Assembly: GCF_004122035.1 (NCBI RefSeq)
Contig: NZ_SAXA01000001.1
Coordinates: forward strand, 186,001-250,000
From: Ancylomarina salipaludis
GTDB lineage: Bacteria > Bacteroidota > Bacteroidia > Bacteroidales > Marinifilaceae
DNA length: 64,000 nt
Direction: 5' to 3'
The notes below the pieces were generated by a model. It ran no database searches. It saw only the letters and a list, made by a program, of their open reading frames with translations, and was not told the origin of the DNA. Numbering within the stretch: the stretch's first letter is position 1; each line of letters opens with the position of its first letter. A program made the translations under genes and the position numbers. Shown here one piece after another: positions 15,112 to 27,803 of this stretch.

Positions 15112-16377
15112 TTAAACTATAAACTGAAACAAATCTGTTTTATCATTCAGGTATTCGAAAATAAATTTTCGATCCGTCATTCTATCTTGCAGACGCTGCA
15201 AGTCTTCAGGTTTTTGCACCTCAATTCCAATTACAGCCGGGCCTTTTTCACGACTGCTTTTTTTATAATATTCAAAGTGAGTAATATCGTCACCCGCATC
15301 AAGCACATCGTTTACAAATTCCTTTAATGCACCTGATCGTTGTGGAAATCGAACAATAAAATAATGCTTAAGGCCTTCATACAAAAGGCTTCTCTCCTTT
15401 ATCTCTTCCATTCGGGTAATGTCGTTATTGCTGCCACTAAGGATACAAACCACATTTTTTCCCTTAATTTTATCTCCTATCAACTCCAAAGCAGCTATTG
15501 ACAAAACGCCGGCAGGTTCAGCAACTATAGCATCCTCATTATACAAGCGCAAAATGGTCGAGCAAATCAAGCCTTCGGGCACAACCAAAATGTCATCCAA
15601 AACCTTATTGCAAATCTGCCAGGTGTAATCGCCCACCTTTTGAACGGCTGCCCCATCAACGAATCGATCGATACTATCCAAGGCCAGATTGCACTGATTA
15701 TCCAGTGCCAATTTCATTGAAGCTGCCCCCTGTGGTTCTACTCCTATAATCTTTGTATTGGGACTAAACTCTTTGATCCAGGCACCAACTCCCGAAGCCA
15801 ATCCCCCACCACCTATGGGTAGCAACAGATAATCAATCGGTTCGGTAAACTGTTGTAATATCTCGAGTCCAATTGTCCCCTGCCCTTCTATGGTTTTAGG
15901 ATCATCAAAAGGGTGAATAAAGGTTTTGCCTTGCTCTTTAGCATCCGCAATCGCCTTTGAAGATGCATCATCAAAAGTATCTCCTGTCAGGAAAACTTCC
16001 ACATAATCGCCACCAAACATTTTCACCTGTTTAATCTTCTGACGAGGTGTGGTTTCGGGCATATAAATACTGCCAAAACATTTCAGTTTCTGGCAGGAAT
16101 AAGCCACCCCCTGAGCATGATTCCCCGCACTGGCACAAACAATTCCTTTGTCCAGATTCGCCTTGCTCAAACTCGCAATCTTATTGAAAGCCCCTCTTAT
16201 TTTATAAGAACGAACCAATTGCAAATCCTCTCTTTTTAGATGAATATTGGCCTGATAACGCGAAGACAAATTCAAATTATTTAGTAACGGAGATGCTAAG
16301 ACAACCTCCTGAACCGTTCGGTTAGCCTTGACGATCTCCGACATTTTAGGATAATATTCCTTTTTATTTTCTGACAC
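15112..16377 (-). CDS. ilvA: threonine ammonia-lyase (threonine deaminase)
   Basis: 421 residues. It deaminates threonine to 2-oxobutyrate, the entry step to isoleucine, using PLP. The PLP lysine is in SYKIRGA (about residue 60), and IGGGGLASG is the phosphate-binding loop (about residue 191). The last 90 residues form one ACT-like regulatory domain (HYFIVRFPQRSGALKEFVNDVL), shorter than the double domain of E. coli IlvA. It is the last gene of the branched-chain cluster, 97 bases after leuB, and is followed by a terminator. Its presence in the cluster argues that isoleucine is made from threonine here and not from citramalate. Feedback control by isoleucine is expected of this form. Confidence 0.92.
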   Translation of the reverse strand: MSENKKEYYPKMSEIVKANRTVQEVVLASPLLNNLNLSSRYQANIHLKREDLQLVRSYKIRGAFNKIASLSKANLDKGIVCASAGNHAQGVAYSCQKLKCFGSIYMPETTPRQKIKQVKMFGGDYVEVFLTGDTFDDASSKAIADAKEQGKTFIHPFDDPKTIEGQGTIGLEILQQFTEPIDYLLLPIGGGGLASGVGAWIKEFSPNTKIIGVEPQGAASMKLALDNQCNLALDSIDRFVDGAAVQKVGDYTWQICNKVLDDILVVPEGLICSTILRLYNEDAIVAEPAGVLSIAALELIGDKIKGKNVVCILSGSNNDITRMEEIKERSLLYEGLKHYFIVRFPQRSGALKEFVNDVLDAGDDITHFEYYKKSSREKGPAVIGIEVQKPEDLQRLQDRMTDRKFIFEYLNDKTDLFQFIV

Positions 16378-16402
16378 AATTTTCCCTTTTAGAATTCAAA
16401 TG

Positions 16403-16426
16403 ATGCTCAGGCATTAACCTGAGCAT
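16403..16426 (-). other. hairpin in the leuB-ilvA gap
   Basis: ATGCTCAGG and CCTGAGCAT form a perfect 9-bp stem with a 6-base loop. On the minus strand no U-run follows, so it is not a standard terminator; it may stabilise or process the mRNA between leuB and ilvA. Confidence 0.5.
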
Positions 16427-16474
16427 TCTGTAAAACTTGCTATGGGGTAACCAATCCCACAAACACAAGATTAA

Positions 16475-17554
16475 CTACAAACTATTTTCTTTTATAAAAT
16501 TGACTAACCAATCACCAACTTCAGAGGTCGAAAAGGCTTTGCCTCCCTCTGCTAAATCTTCAGTCACAAAATTGGCTTCTATTGATTTCTCTACAGCTAA
16601 ACGAACCAAAGCTGCTTCCATTTTTAAACCAAAAGCATGATCAAGCATCATGGCAGCTGATAGAACGGTAGCACATGGGTTCGCAATATTCTTACCTGCA
16701 GCCTGAGGATAGGAACCATGAATCGGTTCGAAAATTGATGTATGAATACCAATTGAAGCTGAAGGCAACATGCCCAGTGATCCCGAAATAACACTCGCCT
16801 CATCGGTTAATATATCACCAAACATATTCTCGGTTACCATCACATCGAAACGCTTCGGCCAGGTGATAATTTGCATCGCCGCATTATCCACAAACATATA
16901 CTCCACCTCTATTTGGGGATATTCAGGCTCAAGTTTCTGAGCAATTTCTCTCCAAAGACGGGACGTAGCCAAGACATTGGCTTTATCTACAACGGTTAAT
17001 TTCTTTCGACGTTTACCTGCAAATTCAAAACCCAAACGGACAATTCGTTCCACCTCTTCAGCAGTATAAACACAGGTATCGTAAGCTGTTTGCCCATCTT
17101 CAGAACGTCCTTGGGGCCGACCAAAATAAATGCCGCCTGTTAACTCACGTATGCACAAAAAATCGACCCCTTCGAGCAATTCTGTTTTAAGGGGGGACTT
17201 ATGCAATAAAGCCTTAAAAGGTTCCAAAGGACGAAGATTGGCATACAAACCCAACTTCTGTCTCATGGCTAATAGCCCCTGCTCCGGACGAACTTTTGCA
17301 TTGGGATCATTATCATATTTGGGATCTCCAATAGCACCAAAAAGAACTGCATCCGAATTCATACACAGTTCATGTGTTTCATCCGGATAAGGATTTCCAT
17401 GTACATTAATGGCTGAAGCTCCAATTAAAGCCTCGGTATATTCAAATTGATGATCGAATTTTTCTGCAATTGCATCAATCACTTTGCGCGCTTGTGCAAC
17501 AATTTCGGGACCGATACCATCACCGGCTAATACTGCAATTTTATATGACATCAT
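16475..17554 (-). CDS. leuB: 3-isopropylmalate dehydrogenase
   Basis: 359 residues. It oxidises and decarboxylates 3-isopropylmalate with NAD to give 2-oxoisocaproate. Motifs: AGDGIGPEI at the N-terminus, [10 protein letters not shown] (about residue 138), VDKANVL with the catalytic Lys (about residue 190), and [15 protein letters not shown], whose Asp residues bind the metal. [16 protein letters not shown] is the NAD-binding region near residue 280. The gene starts ATG ATG; either Met could initiate. It follows leuD after 162 bases that contain a heptanucleotide tandem repeat, the loosest join in the cluster. Confidence 0.95.
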
Positions 17555-17672
17555 TATGATGATTTGTGTTTTTATTAATATATGATCGTGTTATCAACTT
17601 TCAATTATCGGTTATCTCAGTTTCTATTAGATTATAAGGATGATGACCGACAAGAGAAAACGACCAGCGCAA

Positions 17673-17731
17673 CCTTTAACCTTTAACCTTTAACCTTTAA
17701 CCTTTAACCTTTAACCTTAAACCTTTAACCT
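17673..17731. repeat. heptanucleotide tandem repeat (CCTTTAA)n overlapping the 3' end of leuD
   Basis: Seven exact CCTTTAA units (six contiguous at 17673-17714, one at 17722-17728) with one variant CCTTAAA (17715-17721) between them. The array crosses the leuD stop codon (17717-17719), so the last codons (Leu-Lys-Val) and the stop are built from repeat units. Because seven is not a multiple of three, gain or loss of a unit inside the coding part would shift frame. Such arrays vary by slipped-strand mispairing. Confidence 0.92.
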
Positions 17732-18310
17732 TGATTCCTCAAAATCATGAATCTTAGTCTTCTTATCAATCAAGTAATCAATATCATCGAATCCATTTAA
17801 AAGACAAGTCTTCTTGTAAGGATTAATCTCAAACTGAAAAACTTCATCCTTATAGCTCAGCTCTTGTTTCTCCAAATCAATACTTAATTTCTGAGAATGA
17901 TCTTTCTCAATAGCCTCGAATAGTTTTTCAAGAAACTCAGCAGACACCTGGATCGGCAATACCCCATTGTTCAAGGCATTGTTTCTGAAAATATCGGCAA
18001 AGAAACTGCTGATAACAACTTTAAAACCATAGTCGGCAATGGCCCAGGCGGCATGTTCTCTTGATGAACCGGATCCAAAATTCTTTCCGGCAACCAAGAC
18101 TTGTCCTGAATACTCGGGTTGATTTAATACGAAATCTTTAATCGGGTCTCCGGAAGAATCAAAACGCCAATCGCGAAACAGGTTTTCACCAAAACCATCG
18201 CGACTGGTTGCTTTCAAAAAACGGGCAGGTATAATCTGATCGGTATCCACATTCTCGTTGGGAAGTGGTACACAAGATGATTCTAAATATGTAAATTTAT
18301 CTACGGACAT
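17717..18310 (-). CDS. leuD: 3-isopropylmalate dehydratase, small subunit
   Basis: 197 residues. With LeuC it isomerises 2-isopropylmalate to 3-isopropylmalate. [13 protein letters not shown] (about residue 20), [16 protein letters not shown] (about residue 76) and the FRNNALNNG segment (about residue 108) are the swivel-domain signatures. The last three to four residues are encoded by a CCTTTAA repeat array that also supplies the stop codon. The C-terminus of this family is variable, so the protein is probably functional. It follows leuC by 61 bases. Confidence 0.94.
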
Positions 18311-18371
18311 TGTATATCTGTTTAATGTAAAAGATGAAATCTGTTGTCTATAACAGACAACTAATACTGTA

Positions 18372-19772
18372 TTACAAAAATTCCCGGGGATCGGTAATCA
18401 CTCCTGTAATAGCCGCTGCTGCTGCAGTCAGGGGACTTGCCAATAAAGTTCGTGAACCAGGCCCCTGTCTTCCTTCAAAATTCCTATTGGACGTGGAAAC
18501 ACAGTATTTACCTGCTGGCACCTTATCCTCATTCATTGCCAAACACGCTGAACAACCGGGTTGACGAAGCTCAAATCCTGCCTCCTCTAAAATTTCAACC
18601 AAACCTTCTTCAATCGCCTGTTTTTCGACCTTTTTAGAGCCTGGAACAATCCATGCTGTGATTGAATCGGCCTTTTGGCGTCCCTTCACCAAAGCAGCAA
18701 AAGCTCTTAAATCTTCAATTCGCCCATTGGTACAAGAGCCAATAAAAACGTAATCAACTTTCTTACCCAGAATTTTTCTACCAAACTCATAATCCATATA
18801 AGCCAATGATTTCTTAAACGATGGAAGCTCCGAAGCTTGAATATCTGCCAGAGCAGGAACACTTGCTGTAATTCCCATTCCCATGCCAGGATTGGTTCCG
18901 TATGTAATCATGGGTTCAATGTCTTCTGCCCTAAATGTGTATTCCTTATCGAATACAGCACCTTCATCCGTTTTTAAAGTCTTCCACTTTTCTAAAGCCT
19001 GTTCCCAGGCCTCTCCCTTTGGGGCATGCATTCTACCTTTCACATATTCAAATGTGGTTTCATCAGGCGCAATCATCCCGCCACGAGCCCCCATCTCGAT
19101 ACTCATATTACAAACAGTCATTCTGCCTTCCATGCTAAGGCTTCGAACTGCTGATCCGGCATACTCAACAAAGTAGCCCGTAGCACCACCGGTTCCCAAT
19201 TGCGCAATCACATAAAGCGTTAAATCTTTCGCTGAAACACCTTTAGCTAACTCGCCATCAATAGTAATCCGCATCTTTTTAGGCTTGGATTGCATAATGC
19301 ATTGCGTGGCAAAAACCATCTCAACCTCCGATGTCCCAATTCCAAAAGCCACAGCGCCAAAAGCCCCATGTGTTGAGGTATGACTGTCGCCGCAAACCAA
19401 AGTCATACCAGGCTGGGTATGTCCCAGTTCCGGCCCAACCACATGCACAATACCATTATTGGGATGATTCAGACCGTACATTTCAATCTGATTTTTCTCA
19501 CAGTTCGCTTTTAAAGTTTCAACCTGCGTCCGCGATTCCATATCAACGATAGGCAAATCCTGATTCACAGTTGGAACATTGTGATCTGGCGTTGCGATAG
19601 TTCTTTCCGGTCTAAATACCTTTAAACCTCTTGCATTCAAGCCCGAAAAAGCCTGCGGGCTGGTTACCTCATGAATCAAATGCTTGTCGATATAAAGAAT
19701 GTTTGGACCACCTTCAACATGTTCGACCACGTGTGCATCCCAGACCTTATCAAATAGTGTTTTTGCTTTCAA
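18372..19772 (-). CDS. leuC: 3-isopropylmalate dehydratase, large subunit
   Basis: 466 residues, normal for the bacterial type. Aconitase superfamily: [14 protein letters not shown] (about residue 128), and the three 4Fe-4S cysteines in IGSCTNGR (about 346) and GCSACLAMN (about 407-410). [13 protein letters not shown] is the usual N-terminus. It forms a heterodimer with LeuD. It follows leuA by 80 bases in the same orientation, with no promoter or hairpin visible in the gap. Confidence 0.96.
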
Positions 19773-19852
19773 AATATTGTATTTTATGAATTGTGGGTTT
19801 GTAAATAATTGACTGACATTCGTTTTCAGTTATCATTTACTGATAACTTGAA

Positions 19853-21346
19853 TTAAACCAACTTCGCCAAGGCATTCACCAAGGCCTCAACCGAAGCGGT
19901 AATGATGTCGATATTGGCTCCAAAGCCATAATACATTTTACCTTGGTGCTGCAACTGCACATGCACTTTCCCCAAATCATCGCTGCCACGAGTCAAGGTT
20001 TGCACAAGGAATTCTTCCATCGAAAACTTCTGCTTTATCAACTTCTTAACTGCATTAAAACAAGCATCAATAGGACCATTTCCCTCAGCCGTAGCTGCAC
20101 AGGATTCTCCTTTGATCTTGAGATGAACCGTGGCCATAGGAGTCGTCGATTTACCGGCAAGCACTTGCAACAATTCCAACTCAACGGATTGGGTTTCCAA
20201 CTCATGATCCCCCATCAACTCAGCCAAATCATTTTCGTTCACATTCTTTCTCTCATCAGCCATCACCAGGAATCTTGAGTAAGCATCATCCAAATCTTCC
20301 TTCGAAAGGGTGTAGCCCATTTCACCAAGGTGATGATTCAATGCTGCACGACCACTTCGGGCAGATAGAATAATAGCCGATTCCTTAATACCGACATCAG
20401 CAGGATCGATAATCTCGTAATTCTCACGATTTTTCAAAACCCCATCCTGATGAATACCCGATGAATGGGCAAAAGCATTACGACCAACAATAGCCTTATT
20501 TGCCTGAACCGGCATATTCATCAATGAAGAAACCAAACGGCTGGCCTCATAAATACCTTTCGTATTGATATGTGTATGGTAAGGCAAATCGTGATGCGTC
20601 TTAATTGCCATCACCACTTCTTCAAGAGACGTATTCCCCGCACGCTCGCCAATTCCGTTCAAAGTCACTTCAACCTGACGCGCACCATTGATCACACCAC
20701 TCAATGAATTGGCTGTGGCCATACCCAAATCGTTATGACAATGCGTCGACAAGATCGCCTTATGAACATTGGATACATTTTCCATCAGATATTTGATTTT
20801 CGCACCATATTCGCTTGGCAAACAATAGCCTGTTGTATCCGGAATATTGATAACGGTTGCTCCTGCTTTAATCACAGCTTCAACCACTCTTGCCAGGTAT
20901 GCATTATCCGAGCGGCCTGCATCCTCACAATAAAATTCCACATCCTCAACATAACGCTTGGCATATTTTACCGCTCGAACGGCACGATCAAGAATCTCAT
21001 CAGGATTTGAATTTAACTTATTAAATATGTGATAAGACGAGGTTCCAATCCCCGTATGAATTCGACCTCTTTTAGCAAACTTAAGTGCCTGAGCAGCCAC
21101 ATCAATATCCTTTTCAACAGCACGGGTTAATGCGCAAATTGTAGGATGGCTCACTGCTTTGGCTATTTCGACTACAGATTGAAAATCTCCCGGACTTGAT
21201 ACAGGAAAACCCGCTTCGATCACATCGACGCCTAAAGCCTCAAGCGTTCTTGCGACTTCAATCTTCTCAATTGTGTTCAACTGACAGCCAGGGACCTGCT
21301 CCCCATCACGCAATGTGGTGTCGAAAATAAATAATCTATCACTCAT
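19853..21346 (-). CDS. leuA: 2-isopropylmalate synthase
   Basis: About 497 residues with start at 21346 ([17 protein letters not shown]). An in-frame upstream ATG at 21391 lies inside the U-run of the attenuator hairpin and is not credible. It condenses acetyl-CoA with 2-oxoisovalerate, the first step of leucine synthesis. TTLRDGEQ and [11 protein letters not shown] carry the metal-binding Asp and His residues of the TIM barrel. The C-terminal 130 residues are the LeuA allosteric domain that binds leucine, so feedback inhibition is expected. Its own promoter and a leucine/isoleucine-rich leader with attenuator precede it, making it a second transcription unit within the cluster. Confidence 0.94.
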
Positions 21347-21389
21347 TTTTTCTTGTGTTTTGTGGTTAAGTTTTATTCGGTTAATAGCC

Positions 21390-21420
21390 AAAAAAAAAGT
21401 CCTTCCTTATGGGAAGAACT
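21390..21420 (-). terminator. attenuator terminator upstream of leuA
   Basis: On the minus strand AGUUCUUCC pairs with GGAAGGACU (nine pairs, one U-G) around a CAUAA loop, followed by nine U at 21398-21390. It lies between the leader ORF and leuA. The segment GGGAAGA in the leader ORF (plus 21461-21467) is complementary to UCUUCCC at the 5' arm (plus 21411-21417), giving an antiterminator alternative. Confidence 0.88.
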
Positions 21421-21449
21421 TCGTATAATTTTATCTGATCGGATTTAAA

Positions 21450-21881: not shown

Positions 21882-22928
21882 TTAGTTGTTCTCCGGGCGA
21901 AGCTTACGAACCGCAGTTCCGGCTTGCCACATTTCACTATCACGTAACTCTTCCAATTCAGCATCCAATTTCACCCGGTAGTCCTCCTGAGAGTTCGAGT
22001 CGATGGAACGTTGCGCTTCGTTTCCGGCAGCAACCTCCTTGTATAACTTTTCGAAAACGGGTTTGGTTGCATCACGGAAAGGCTTCCACCAATCCAGTGC
22101 GCCACGCTGAGCGGTTGTCGATGTATTGGCATACATCCAATCCATACCATTTTCAGCAACCAAAGGCATCAGACTCTGGGTCAATTCTTCAACCGTCTCA
22201 TTGAAAGCCTCTGATGGCGAATGACCATTAGCACGCAAAACATCGTACTGAGCTGCAAAGATTCCCTGAATACATCCCATCAAAGTACCACGCTCACCTG
22301 TCAGGTCAGAATAAACTTCACGTTTGAAAGTGGTTTCGAAAAGGTAACCCGAACCAACCCCAATACCCAACGCAACCACACGATCGAAAGCACGACCTGT
22401 TGCATCCTGAAAGATGGCATAAGACGAATTCAATCCACGTCCCTCAAGAAACATACGACGCAAACTGGTGCCAGAACCCTTTGGTGCAACCAATATCACA
22501 TCAACATCAGCCGGAGGTACAATACCGGTTCGCTCCTTATAAGTAATGCCAAATCCGTGAGAGAAATAAAGCGCCTTCCCGGGCTTCAAATATTTCTGAA
22601 CTGTTGGCCAAACAGCAATCTGGCCCGCATCTGACAATAGATACTGAATAACAGTCGCTCTATCCAAAGCCTCTTCGATCTCGAAAAGATCTTTACCGGG
22701 AACCCAGCCATCAGCGACTGCCTTATCCCAGGTTTTGGAATCTTTACGTTGTCCAACGATGACATTGAAACCATTATCTTTCAGATTTAGAGACTGTCCC
22801 GGTCCTTGTACACCATAACCGATAACAGCAATGGTTTCGTCTTTCATCACTTCACGCGCTTTTTCCAATGAAAACTCTTCTCGTGTTACAACCTGTTCTT
22901 CTGTTCCTCCAAAATTTATTGTTGCCAT
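21882..22928 (-). CDS. ilvC: ketol-acid reductoisomerase
   Basis: About 348 residues with start at 22928 (MATINFGGTEE); the ATG at 22976 would add 16 unlikely residues. It converts acetolactate or acetohydroxybutyrate to the dihydroxy acid with NADPH and Mg. GYGVQGPGQSLNLKD is the dinucleotide loop and GQRKDSKTW covers the cofactor-specificity region. SDLTGERGTLMG contains the metal-binding acidic residues. The knotted C-terminal domain looks complete. It follows ilvN and is the last gene before the leu promoter; two palindromes lie after its stop. Confidence 0.94.
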   Translation of the reverse strand: MATINFGGTEEQVVTREEFSLEKAREVMKDETIAVIGYGVQGPGQSLNLKDNGFNVIVGQRKDSKTWDKAVADGWVPGKDLFEIEEALDRATVIQYLLSDAGQIAVWPTVQKYLKPGKALYFSHGFGITYKERTGIVPPADVDVILVAPKGSGTSLRRMFLEGRGLNSSYAIFQDATGRAFDRVVALGIGVGSGYLFETTFKREVYSDLTGERGTLMGCIQGIFAAQYDVLRANGHSPSEAFNETVEELTQSLMPLVAENGMDWMYANTSTTAQRGALDWWKPFRDATKPVFEKLYKEVAAGNEAQRSIDSNSQEDYRVKLDAELEELRDSEMWQAGTAVRKLRPENN

Positions 22929-23056
22929 CTTTTTTAATTTTTTATCCGGGATATAAGATTTGAAAACCAAATTCATACATCTTTTATCCCATTTTATTAT
23001 TTATTCAATTTTTATTTCCAATTCTAAAATCAGAATTCATCATTCTGAAATTAGCC

Positions 23057-23578
23057 TTAACTGGCTTCAGCCAATTCCTTTAAATATGTTGTAAAATCTT
23101 TCTTCAAGGTAGATACCGCAACGCGTCCAGATCGTGCGAATTGCAATACGCCATATTGCTCTAACTCCTCAAACAAGTCTTGATTTTCGGCCTTATAACC
23201 TACTCTCTCAATCACCATAAAATCAGTACTCACCGTTAGAATCTTTGCATTATAATTTCTGACCAGAGCCTCAAGATTCCCATTCAAACGGGTTGAATTT
23301 GAAATTTTAAACAGAGCGACCTCCTGATGAACGATCTCTTCTGCTTCGAAATAAATCGCTTTGAAAACGCCAATAATCTTTTCAATTTGAAGCACAATAT
23401 TCTCAACTTTACTTTCGTCCATGAAGGCGACAATCGTGTATCGGGACACTCCCTTTACCTCTGACTCCGAAACAGTCAGACTTTCAATATTGATCTTTCT
23501 TCTTGAAAAAACGATGGTTATTTCATTTAGGAGACCAATATTGTTTTCCGAAAAAACGGTTATTGTATATTCTTTCAT
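23057..23578 (-). CDS. ilvN: acetolactate synthase, small regulatory subunit
   Basis: 173 residues with an N-terminal ACT domain (YTITVFSENNIGLLNEITIVFSRR... with SLTVS) that binds valine and a C-terminal ACT-like half. It activates the large subunit and confers feedback control. It starts 30 bases after ilvB, so translation is probably coupled. Often named ilvH in other annotations; the sequence is of the long IlvN/IlvH type. Confidence 0.9.
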   Translation of the reverse strand: MKEYTITVFSENNIGLLNEITIVFSRRKINIESLTVSESEVKGVSRYTIVAFMDESKVENIVLQIEKIIGVFKAIYFEAEEIVHQEVALFKISNSTRLNGNLEALVRNYNAKILTVSTDFMVIERVGYKAENQDLFEELEQYGVLQFARSGRVAVSTLKKDFTTYLKELAEAS

Positions 23579-23608: not shown

Positions 23609-25345
23609 TTACTCCAGTCTCATATCCGAAACGGCTGCTCCCGGTGCAATCATGGGTAATACATTTGATTCGGTTTCGACAACAACCTCAAGAAAATAGG
23701 CATTGGGTGATTCCAACATTTCCCTGATCGCAGCATCCAACTCATCCCGTTTACTAACCCGTTTCGCTTGTATGCCGTAGCCCTCCACAATCTTAACAAA
23801 GTCAGGATTATCCAATCGGGTACATGAAAAACGTTGGTCAAAAAACAAATCCTGCCACTGTCGAACCATACCCAGAAATGAATTATTCAAAACAATGGTT
23901 TTCACTGGCAAATTGTATTGTCTGATTACAGCCAATTCCTGCAAAGTCATCTGAAAACCACCATCACCTGATATGGAAACAACCGTGGCCTCTTTATCTC
24001 CAATCTGTGCTCCAATGGCCGCAGGCAAACCAAATCCCATGGTTCCCAAACCGCCTGAAGTAATCTGTGTATTGGGTTTCTTAAACTCATAATAACGCGC
24101 TGAGGCCATCTGATGCTGCCCCACATCAGTACACAAAACAGCCTCTCCCTTAGTTTGTTCCGACACCAATCGAACCACCTCAGCCATATTAATCTGCTCC
24201 CTGTCCGAATAGGCTTGTTTCCTGATTACCTTATCAAATTCAAGCTGATGGTAAGCTTTAAAAGTGTCCATCCACTCAAGCTTCTCTACTCCCTTAACCA
24301 ATTTATTCAATTCACTTAAAGCCTGTCTGGCATCAGCCAATACGGGCACATCAACCTTTATATTTTTATTGTGTTCCGATCGGTCAATATCAATATGAAT
24401 AATCCTGGCCTGTCGGGCATATTTCGCGGTATCACCTGTTACCCTATCGTCGAAACGCATACCCACAGCAATCAACACATCACATTCGTTAGTATTTTTA
24501 TTAGGTCCGTAATTACCATGCATACCCAACATGCCCACATAGAGGGGGTGATACGTCGGGAAAGACGACAAGCCCAAAAGAGTACAAGCCACCGGAATCT
24601 GAGTCTTTTCAACAAAGGTCATCAACTCCTTTTCTGCTCCTGATAAAAGAATTCCCTGACCAGCAAGCAATAAGGGTTTCTTCGCATTATTGATCAATTC
24701 GGCTGCTGCTACTATCTGGCTCATATCCAGCTGCGGTACAGGTTGGTATGAGCGAATAAAATCACACTTTTTATATTTATAATCCGCTGTTGCAATCTGT
24801 GCATCCTTGGTGATATCAACCAAAACAGGCCCCGGGCGCCCCGAGCGCGCGATATAAAAAGCTTTAGCCATCACCTCTGCAATCTCTTCGGCTTTGGTAA
24901 TTTGAAAATTCCACTTCGTAACCGGCATGGATAAACCAATCATGTTGGTTTCCTGAAAAGCATCCGATCCCAAAAAGCCACTGGCTACCTGTCCGGTGAT
25001 AATTACAAGTGGGGTTGAATCCAGATAAGCATCTGCCAATCCGGTCAAAACATTGGTGGCTCCCGGTCCCGATGTTGTGAAACAAACACCTGGCTTTTTA
25101 CTGATTCGCGCATAGGCCTGTGCCGCATGAGTTGCCCCTTGCTCGTGACGCGCCTGATAGTGCTGCAGTTCATCCTGATGATCGTATAAGGCATCGTATA
25201 CAGGCATAATCGCCCCACCGATATAACCAAATATGCTGTCGACACCTTCTTCAATCAAACTTCTAACTAATATTTCTGCACCAGATAAATGCTCTGTAGC
25301 TTTAGTCATGGTATTCGTATCCTGAGTTTCTGTTGCTAATTCCAT
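23609..25345 (-). CDS. ilvB: acetolactate synthase, large catalytic subunit
   Basis: 578 residues; ThDP- and FAD-dependent enzyme joining pyruvate with pyruvate or 2-oxobutyrate. The catalytic Glu is in ARHEQGA (about residue 69). The ThDP motif begins SGDGGFQM and ends at [12 protein letters not shown] (about residues 460-490). SGPGATN and TGQV are conserved. An internal ATG at 25309 ([10 protein letters not shown]) is an alternative start nearer the usual N-terminus. It follows ilvD after 92 bases. Confidence 0.95.
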
Positions 25346-25437: not shown

Positions 25438-27273
25438 TTAAACGTTTCGCACAGCCCCTTTGTCTGCTGAACTGACCAGTTTCGAATAGGCTTGTAAGGC
25501 TTTCGATACGACCCGATCTCTGCCTCTTGGTGTGAACGCTTTGTTGCCAAAGGCCTCTTCTTCTTTTCTTCGGGCTTGCAATTCATCATCCGAAATACAA
25601 ATGTTCAGGCTTCGGTTTGGGATGCTGATTTCAATCACATCTCCCTCTTTAATCAGGGCAATGGCGCCTCCCGCTGAAGCTTCGGGTGAAACATGTCCGA
25701 TTGATAAACCTGAGGTGCCTCCCGAAAATCGGCCATCGGTAATCAGGGCACACTTGGCTCCCAATCCCATGGCTTTCAGGTAAGAGGTTGGATAAAGCAT
25801 CTCTTGCATACCAGGTCCTCCCGCTGGCCCCTCGAACTTGATAACCACGACATCGCCCGCATTTACTTGTCTGGTGAGAATGGCTTCGCAAGCATCCCGC
25901 TGTGAATGATACACCTTGGCTCTTCCCTTAAAGTTGAAAACCTCTTCAGCCACTCCGGCAGTTTTCACCACACAACCATCAGGAGCAAGATTCCCAAAGA
26001 GAACCGCCAATCCTCCATCCTGAGAATAGGCATTGGCAATACTTCTGATACAACCCTCTTCTCTATCAATATCTACTTGCTTATATTCCGAAGCTTGTGA
26101 AGCAAAACTCAAGTTACGTCCACTACGGCCCGGTGCAGCATGGTAAATCGCCTTTGCTTTTTCTGTCAGACTTTCTGCTGACAGATCATATTCCTTAAGT
26201 GCTTGCTTTAAACTTTTCTGATCAACACGAGTCACTTCGGTGTTTAAAAGGCCACCCTTGTCCAGCTCGGCCAATATGCTCATGATACCACCTGCGCGAT
26301 TCACATCTTCGATATAATATCTGTCGGAGTTGGGCGCGACCTTACACAGGTTTGGCGTTTGGCGCGACAAGTCATCCATATCTTTCATTGTAAAATCAAC
26401 TTCGGCCTCATTGGCGATAGCCAAAAGATGAAGCACCGTATTGGTTGAACCGCCCATTGCAATATCCAATGTCATTGCATTCTTAAAAGCCTCACGTGTG
26501 GCAACTGATCTGGGTAAAACCCTAGCATCGCCCTGCTTGTAGTAAGCATCTGTTATTGTCACAATGCAGTCAGCCGCATCCAAAAACAAAGCCTTGCGTA
26601 ACTTGTGTGTCGCCAATAAAGTGCCGTTTCCAGGTAAAGCCAATCCCAAAGCCTCATTCAGACAATTCATCGAATTGGCCGTGAACATACCGGAACAAGA
26701 TCCACAGGTTGGACAAGCCGATTCTTCAATTTCCTGAAGACGTTCATCACTCACGCTATCGTCTCCAGCTTTAACCATGGCATCAACCAAATCAAGCTTT
26801 TCGCCTTTCGATTCGCCAGCCTCCATAGGTCCACCCGACACAAAAACGGTGGGGATATTCAATCGCATAGCAGCCATCATCATACCCGGAGTAATCTTGT
26901 CACAATTCGATATGCAAATCATCGCATCCACCTTGTGTGCATTACACACATACTCCACACTATCGGCTATCAGCTCGCGAGATGGCAACGAATACAACAT
27001 GCCATCGTGTCCCATGGCGATACCATCATCAATGGCTATGGTATTGAACTCAGCAGCAAAATAACCTGATTTCTCAATCTGCTTTTTCACCATTTGTCCA
27101 ACATCCTGCAGGTGTGCATGCCCCGGAACAAACTGCGAAAATGAGTTCACTATGGCTATTACGGGTTTCCCAAACATTTCCTCTTTCATGCCATTCGCCC
27201 GCCACAAGCTTCTGGCTCCTGCCATGCGTCTGCCCTCGGTGGTTTGGCTGCTGCGTAATTGGTTTTTATACAT
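25438..27273 (-). CDS. ilvD: dihydroxy-acid dehydratase
   Basis: 611 residues. It dehydrates dihydroxy acids to 2-oxoisovalerate and 2-oxo-3-methylvalerate. Iron-sulfur cysteines are in [11 protein letters not shown] (about residue 123) and [17 protein letters not shown] (about residue 195). [15 protein letters not shown] near residue 518 is the family signature. It is the first structural gene of the cluster, read through two tandem leader/attenuator modules (27352-27653). The distance from the downstream hairpin's U-run to the start codon is about 78 bases. Confidence 0.95.
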
Positions 27274-27351: not shown

Positions 27352-27384
27352 AAAAAAAAACGCTCTTCCATTTCGGGAAGAGCG
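27352..27384 (-). terminator. second (ilvD-proximal) attenuator terminator
   Basis: On the minus strand CGCUCUUCC pairs exactly with GGAAGAGCG (plus 27376-27384 with 27361-27369) around a 6-base loop, followed by nine U at 27360-27352. The 5' arm extended by two bases reads GCGCUCUUCCC and is partly complementary to GGGAAAGCG inside the leader ORF (plus 27421-27429): five plus three pairs with a bulge. Confidence 0.9.
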
Positions 27385-27406
27385 CTCATCAATTCATTTG
27401 TTCGAA

Positions 27407-27496
27407 TTATTGTGTGTGCACGCTTTCCCTCATCCTCATTTTAATAATGACGATGACCATAATAATGATAATAATGACTAGCTTACTTGATAACAT
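27407..27496 (-). CDS. ilvL: ilv leader peptide 2
   Basis: A 29-residue ORF, ATG at 27496, TAA at 27409-27407. Residues 6-18 read LVIIIIIMVIVII: eight Ile, three Val and one Leu codon in thirteen positions (ATT, ATC, GTC, CTA), then KMRMRESVHTQ. It stands directly before a terminator hairpin ahead of ilvD. The codon run is the expected sensor of Ile/Val charging. The simple ATT/ATC pattern could be mistaken for a microsatellite, but start, stop, spacing and hairpin all fit an attenuator. Confidence 0.88.
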   Translation of the reverse strand: MLSSKLVIIIIIMVIVIIKMRMRESVHTQ

Positions 27497-27511
27497 ACAA
27501 TAATCTGATCT

Positions 27512-27540
27512 AAAAAAAAACCCCTTCGTTTCGGAAGAGG
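27512..27540 (-). terminator. first (promoter-proximal) attenuator terminator
   Basis: On the minus strand CCUCUUC pairs with GAAGGGG (seven pairs, one U-G), followed by nine U at 27520-27512. It ends 16 bases before the ATG of leader peptide 2. CAAAGCCUC at and before the 5' arm (plus 27537-27545) can pair in eight of nine positions with GAGGUUGUG in leader ORF 1 (plus 27583-27591). Confidence 0.85.
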
Positions 27541-27569
27541 CTTTGAATATTTTGTAAAACTTGTTTCGT

Positions 27570-27653
27570 TTAGTTTAATATGCACAACCTCGATTCATGT
27601 CCAATTAGGACGCGAATAATGACGTTAATAATAATGATTGTATTCAATTGCAT
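27570..27653 (-). CDS. ilv leader peptide 1
   Basis: A 27-residue ORF, ATG at 27653, TAA at 27572-27570. Residues 6-17 read IIIINVIIRVLI (seven Ile, two Val, one Leu), then GHESRLCILN with more Leu and Ile. It lies about 118 bases after a promoter match and 30 bases before a terminator hairpin with nine U. Same architecture as leader 2, with unrelated peptide sequence outside the branched-chain run. No ribosome binding site is obvious, as usual in this group. Confidence 0.84.
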   Translation of the reverse strand: MQLNTIIIINVIIRVLIGHESRLCILN

Positions 27654-27770
27654 ATTGCTTTTTCTATTTCCGGATTCCTCATTAATTTATTGAAATCCTT
27701 TTGTTTTAATCTTGTCAACGAACCTTTACAATCTCTCTTTCGATCTGATTACGCTGACAAATCTATGCTA

Positions 27771-27803
27771 CAAATATAGGTGATAAAATCCTTTATTTCC
27801 AAA
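27771..27803 (-). promoter_or_regulatory. promoter of the ilvD-ilvC operon
   Basis: TATATTTG on the minus strand (plus 27771-27778) with TTTG 21 bases upstream (plus 27800-27803). This is the best Bacteroidota promoter match in the window. A second TAGATTTG lies at plus 27758-27765. The rest of the gap to the next gene (27804-27998) is AT-rich with nothing I can name. Confidence 0.7.

Follow-up and report, generated by a model that had tools for sequence, protein, structure and literature searches.

In its textbook form, attenuation of amino-acid operons gives each operon a single decision point. In the leuL leader the control codons are rare, as they are in the leaders described here. More generally, the enterobacterial ilvL, ivbL, and leuL leaders share with the present locus a stretch of Ile/Val/Leu codons, 2:3 and 3:4 hairpins as alternatives, a U tract, and a position ahead of the cognate operon. 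However, the enterobacterial ilv and leu operons have one attenuator each, whereas here two are arranged in series, in a member of the Bacteroidota, and match no Rfam leader family.

Two leader ORFs in series have been described in the Salmonella mgtCBR leader (mgtM and mgtP), where they respond additively to ATP and proline without intrinsic terminators; its authors call this tandem arrangement a singular example (PMC3641672). Both there and here, each of the two serial ORFs has its own attenuating structure. The mgtCBR signals are unrelated and intrinsic terminators are lacking, whereas both leaders studied here are Ile/Val runs and both are followed by intrinsic terminators, which places the locus outside the mgtCBR type. 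Tandem riboswitches and T-boxes are known as well and also provide serial decision points (PMC12452182, on contiguous riboswitches; PMC7583486); PMC3641672 cites the B. clausii metE leader as one with two terminators. In riboswitches and T-boxes, however, the RNA senses the ligand or the tRNA directly, while the sensor here would be the translating ribosome.

Leader-type elements have previously been proposed in the Bacteroidota: predicted leader-peptide attenuation in Flavobacterium psychrophilum (PMC9723704), further elements (PMC7366714), and the Bacteroid-trp RNA (RF01692; PMC2864571). Like the elements studied here, the Bacteroid-trp RNA and the F. psychrophilum leaders are cis elements of amino-acid operons in this phylum; unlike them, they are not reported in tandem in the accessible portions of PMC2864571 and PMC9723704. 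A tandem ilv or his leader-peptide attenuator was not found in the open-access literature, although subscription papers may mention one. With mgtCBR as the only tandem leader-ORF case found, serial leader-peptide attenuators for the same signal appear to represent a new arrangement of a known mechanism. We propose that the ilvDBNC genes of Ancylomarina salipaludis are very probably controlled by two complete ribosome-mediated attenuators in series behind one promoter, which most likely derive from a duplicated ancestral unit and would multiply their readthrough.

The region upstream of ilvD

In the window (the whole stretch of DNA analysed, 64,000 nucleotides), all elements of the ilv attenuator region lie on the minus strand, within 725 intergenic nucleotides between a KamA-like radical SAM gene (end 27999) and ilvD (start 27273). 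Their order is promoter, conserved 5′ hairpin, leader 1 and its terminator, leader 2 and its terminator, then ilvD. The first gene under the proposed control, ilvD (25438–27273; dihydroxy-acid dehydratase; NF009103, TIGR00110), is followed on the same strand by ilvB (23609–25345; acetolactate synthase large subunit; TIGR00118), ilvN (23057–23578; acetolactate synthase small subunit; TIGR00119), and ilvC (21882–22976; ketol-acid reductoisomerase; TIGR00465), and then by leuA (ATG at 21346), leuC, leuD, leuB, and ilvA (together 15112–21391, minus strand). The enzymes encoded by ilvD, ilvB, ilvN, and ilvC make the amino acids whose codons fill the leaders. The protein encoded upstream of the cluster (30194–27999, minus strand) is a KamA-family radical SAM protein of 731 aa; it greatly exceeds the 2,3-aminomutase models in length and scores below the curated cut-offs set for them.

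Leader ORF 1 (MQLNTIIIINVIIRVLIGHESRLCILN; 27653–27570, 27 codons) and leader ORF 2 (MLSSKLVIIIIIMVIVIIKMRMRESVHTQ; 27496–27407, 29 codons), both on the minus strand, are kept in all core relatives and reach 10 and 11 Ile, Leu, or Val residues, respectively, in 12 positions. The codon counts of the sequence-only reading were accurate: seven Ile, two Val, and one Leu at codons 6–17 of leader 1, and eight Ile, three Val, and one Leu at codons 6–18 of leader 2. It had also described a terminator with nine U after each leader, and both can be recognized: predicted terminator 1 (strands 3 and 4; 27512–27544 with its U tract, stem 27544–27517, –12.4 kcal/mol) and predicted terminator 2 (27352–27387, stem 27387–27358, –18.3 kcal/mol), both on the minus strand and conserved by sequence between a leader ORF and the first gene. 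Such units do not readily arise by chance. In 4000 dinucleotide-preserving shuffles of the 725-nt region, none produced a leader with at least 9/12 Ile, Leu, or Val followed by a terminator, and only three units reach 10/12 on both strands of the 64-kb window, namely the two before ilvD and one before leuA. An Rfam scan of the window, at gathering and at relaxed thresholds, identified no leader family, including Bacteroid-trp, the weak matches lying far below threshold.

Upstream of both units lies a Bacteroidota-type promoter (27771–27803, minus strand), recognized by its conservation, with a –7 box TATATTTG (27778–27771) and a TTTG 21 nt upstream (27803–27800). The motif TAYATTTG, with an upstream TTG or TTTG, is present in all 22 core sequences. 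No other conserved TAnnTTTG box occurs in these sequences between the promoter and ilvD; one promoter therefore probably serves both units, as had already been read from the sequence. A separate promoter for leader 2 was rejected, since no conserved TAnnTTTG box lies between the units.

Between the promoter and leader 1, close to where the transcript presumably starts, conservation and folding both point to a hairpin (27712–27760, minus strand). These approximately 50 nt, which carry the inverted repeat TTGTCARCG/CGTTGACAA, hardly vary, even in the loop: 46 of 64 alignment columns do not vary, 98.8% of the outer-helix cells are paired, and the predicted energy is –14.6 kcal/mol (z –3.95). A covariance model of the hairpin (R1) matched once per genome, before ilvD, in 11/11 core tandem genomes of a 40-genome sample, and found no convincing match elsewhere in that sample; the idea of a widespread element was rejected because it occurs once per genome and in core genomes only. 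Both a 5′ RNA element and a DNA operator fit these observations.

Alternative pairing and the position of the switch

The pairing of each unit was followed in an alignment of core sequences, with 17 distinct rows for unit 1 (A2) and 21 rows for unit 2 (A3); covariation is limited by the close relatedness of the core genomes. In unit 1, strand 2 (GAGGTT...GCATATT; 27577–27591, minus strand) can pair with either strand 1 or strand 3. Strand 1, AATATGC, lies over the leader start codon (27656–27650) and has GCATATT as its partner. This outer 1:2 helix is 100% paired, with a double change from U-A to C-G in three sequences, and 94.9% of cells are paired in the 1:2 helix overall, its inner pairs being broken in up to 7/17 sequences. 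The pairing of GAGGTT..ATATT with strand 3 is kept in 99.5% of cells, and that of the 3:4 terminator stem in 99.4%, compared with 15–80% in the slid-pairing control, even if the 2:3 and 3:4 helices show too little variation to beat column shuffles.

In unit 2 (27421–27455, minus strand), strand 1 (CATCGTCATT; 27455–27446) lies within the Ile/Val codons and faces its partner AATGAGGATG (27440–27431), next to strand 2 (GGGAAAGCG; 27429–27421). Cells are paired at 90.5% for CATCGTCATT with AATGAGGATG (1:2) at 89.4% for GGGAAAGCG with strand 3 (2:3), and at 98.7% for the terminator, against 27–68% in the slid-pairing control. The terminator has nine both-side changes, and none of 500 shuffles scored as high. 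Two sequences (L016 and L118) carry U instead of C at one position of strand 3, and in both of them the facing G of strand 2 and that of strand 4 have become A (columns 73/130/137). Such three-way matched changes are expected of mutually exclusive helices. Both units thus contain a 2:3 antiterminator that excludes the terminator and a 1:2 protector within or over the leader, with weaker inner pairs in unit 1.

The position of the switch was modelled with equilibrium energies, for an RNA truncated ahead of strand 4 and a ribosome that blocks 12 nt from the start of its A-site codon. In six species and for both leaders, the modelled probability of the 2:3 helix was high with the ribosome stalled at any control codon and dropped sharply within some five codons after the last of these, which places the modelled switch point at codons ~18–20 of leader 1 and ~20–23 of leader 2 in all six. 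A third leader in the window, before leuA, showed the same modelled loss of the antiterminator past its control codons. The leader stop codons fall within strand 2 or shortly after it, a position at which a ribosome ending translation would mask this strand. The folding model without a ribosome mostly predicts the antiterminator, so that the proposed no-ribosome state would rest on kinetics.

Codon choice in the leaders is also biased. Most Val codons are GTC (55/61 in leader 1 and 63/104 in leader 2), which is the rarest Val codon (10%) in the 25 window genes counted. Part of this bias may come from base-pairing needs. Attenuation theory ties sensitivity to the choice among synonymous control codons (PMC1183508).

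On this basis, RNA polymerase would have to clear both units before it reached ilvDBNC. A ribosome stalled on Ile or Val codons, or in unit 1 also on Leu codons, would leave strand 2 free to form the 2:3 helix and so block the terminator, while a ribosome at the stop codon would cover strand 2 and allow the 3:4 terminator to form. With no ribosome, strand 1 would hold strand 2, and the terminator would form in this case too. Since both decisions have to be passed, readthrough would be the product Q1 × Q2. Multiplied repression is what the serial layout leads us to infer: with amino acids in excess the leak would be multiplied down, and the logarithmic sensitivities of the two units would add, giving tighter repression and steeper induction.

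Spread and origin of the double unit

Regions upstream of ilvD were drawn from whole genomes and named contigs. In the core Marinifilaceae set (82–100% IlvD identity, including named Marinifilum and Labilibaculum, with G026 left out because it looks chimeric), all 22 independent genomes with ilvD carry the two ORFs and the two terminators. The sequence-only reading had staked its proposal on conservation of the ORFs in relatives, and both leaders are indeed kept; a doubling unique to the A. salipaludis genome is consequently rejected. The length of leader 1 varies, with either 22 or 27 residues. The ilv region of G026 (L008) is a patchwork in which some stretches are 100% identical to G001 and others 94–99% identical to G014, and this assembly is probably chimeric. 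Another genome, G004, has a second match to the last 36 IlvD residues just downstream of ilvD (L007 1403–1296 and 3327–1504), perhaps a duplicated tail.

A scan of 202 distinct regions upstream of ilvD counted 107 with one unit, 63 with none, and 32 with two; non-Bacteroidota sequences and contig ends are among the regions without a unit, and three of the double calls were judged false. The class-wide IlvD search was too strict to take in Flavobacteriia. In the three rejected doubles (L030, L180, and L185), the first “leader” is weak (7–8/12) and far upstream, and the covariance models gave no second match in L180 and L185, and none at the far-upstream place in L030. Outside the core, two units occur in the same family in genera g3 (L026, L120, L121) and g17 (L126–L129), and in three other families: f23 (L130, L211), f25 (L195), and f184 (L204, L253, and L205, in which the first, upstream copy looks degenerate). 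According to the covariance models, 76 other loci in the order lack a second unit before ilvD on the coding strand. On the IlvD tree, the tandem state needs eight gains or losses, at least six of them forced by well-supported branches. These results indicate that the tandem state was gained or lost repeatedly, and reject a single origin followed by retention. Doubling looks like the derived condition, with a single unit before ilvD in most Bacteroidales.

The two copies appear to be related to each other. With a covariance model built on either unit, the other is recovered at E-values of about 1e-6 to 1e-4, which contradicts the initial statement that the sequences outside the codon run are unrelated; the two models also match the leuA unit and, in other families, single ilv units. 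In the window, units 1 and 2 are ~59% identical (z ~5, and 4.5 for the part after the run), although shared function raises such scores and could account in part for the resemblance. We consider it likely that they are old, diverged paralogues, and the initial remark that a recent duplication is not obvious holds for this pair. The two ilv copies of L195, at 88% identity, are by sequence a recent duplication. Most likely, a single ancestral Bacteroidales ilv attenuator would have been duplicated and its copies would then have diverged.

The survey covered ilv, leu, his, trp, and thr operons. Scanning the window revealed a leader absent from the sequence-only reading, leader ORF 3 (MKMNLILIGLILIIDLIIMRSRGKTVL, Leu/Ile; 21533–21450, minus strand), which directly precedes leuA and has its own intrinsic terminator (AAGTTCTTCCCATAAGGAAGGACTT and a U run; 21397–21421, minus strand). 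Homologous leaders are present in 17 of 20 core relatives. Together, the ilv and leuA units provide the cluster with two Ile/Val switches in series at the front and one Leu/Ile switch midway, and this latter, separate attenuator would control the leu half.

In the same genome, two His leaders precede hisG (MIFTAQHHHHIYLPQVSG and MIFVTQHHHHHFSLPQVSR). Each leader has a terminator of its own, and the copies are 84% identical over 159 nt (L256 reverse complement ~950–1300; G000:C34). Among 58 hisG loci, 45 have one unit, six none, and seven two, the latter being all five sampled members of the genus to which the window belongs, plus two from an unrelated genus (L263, L269). Tandem His leaders in the genome that carries the ilv pair suggest that doubling is not tied to ilv. 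The trp locus of A. salipaludis has a single WWW leader; this Trp leader (MNASVCKFWWWHNTN...) and a strong terminator lie before a chorismate-binding (trpE-type) gene (L258 ~720–873). No leader-plus-terminator unit was found near the homoserine dehydrogenase gene (Thr).

Amino-acid inputs and alternative readings

The sequence-only reading had suggested that the two leaders could respond to different amino-acid mixtures, a claim that finds modest support. In 21/22 sequences, codon 16 of leader 1, which immediately precedes the switch point, encodes Leu, whereas in leader 2 a Leu within the run (at codon 6, well away from the switch) occurs in the window's genus only (6/22). The two units may therefore weigh amino acids differently, only leader 1 keeping a Leu near its switch point. 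A reading that refines serial attenuation and is compatible with it takes leader 1 to sense Ile, Val, and Leu and leader 2 only Ile and Val, the two acting as an AND gate. A shortage of Leu alone would then open unit 1 and not unit 2, so that ilv stays off while the leuA attenuator opens. The distribution of these Leu codons and the separate Leu/Ile leader ahead of leuA are consistent with this reading. However, one or two Leu among at least ten control codons may matter little, the Leu codons may be kept for the GTCC/GGAC hairpin that contains them, and one relative (L007) has Ile at codon 16. We regard such a gate as possible, while leaning somewhat against it.

It is improbable that only one unit regulates, its duplicate surviving as a remnant whose terminator acts constitutively or not at all. 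Terminator 1 is the weaker one (–12.4 vs –18.3 kcal/mol), and the degenerate-looking upstream copy of L205 suggests that such decay can be found in one lineage; but ORF, control codons, stop position, antiterminator, and terminator are kept in both units, with compensatory changes across the core genera. Least of all do we expect the short ORFs to act mainly as functional small peptides, or the terminated leaders as trans-acting small RNAs with attenuation secondary, since the pairing conserved inside the coding region, the choice of rare codons, and a leader 1 of 22 or 27 residues fit a cis role, even though the leader peptides are hydrophobic, terminated products of ~250 and ~410 nt would arise, and a trans-acting attenuator leader, peTrpL, is known (PMC7298713).

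Beyond the preferred reading of two serial attenuators, a broader view can be put forward tentatively, and we hold it to be rather doubtful as a whole: that serial doubling is a recurrent way for Bacteroidales to square the range of amino-acid operons by repeated duplication (ilv in several lineages, his at least twice), that the Marinifilaceae ilv copies have diverged into a two-input AND gate of which only the first sees Leu, and that the invariant 5′ hairpin adds a further layer.

The locus offers a natural series of two attenuators for the same signal, kept in a group of genera, while most members of the order possess a single one. The double unit allows a direct test of attenuator-sensitivity theory (PMC1183508), under which logarithmic sensitivities add and leak multiplies, and the recently duplicated his copies and ilv copies of L195 serve as natural before-and-after cases. 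More generally, the double attenuators chart part of a little-mapped layer of control in the Bacteroidota.
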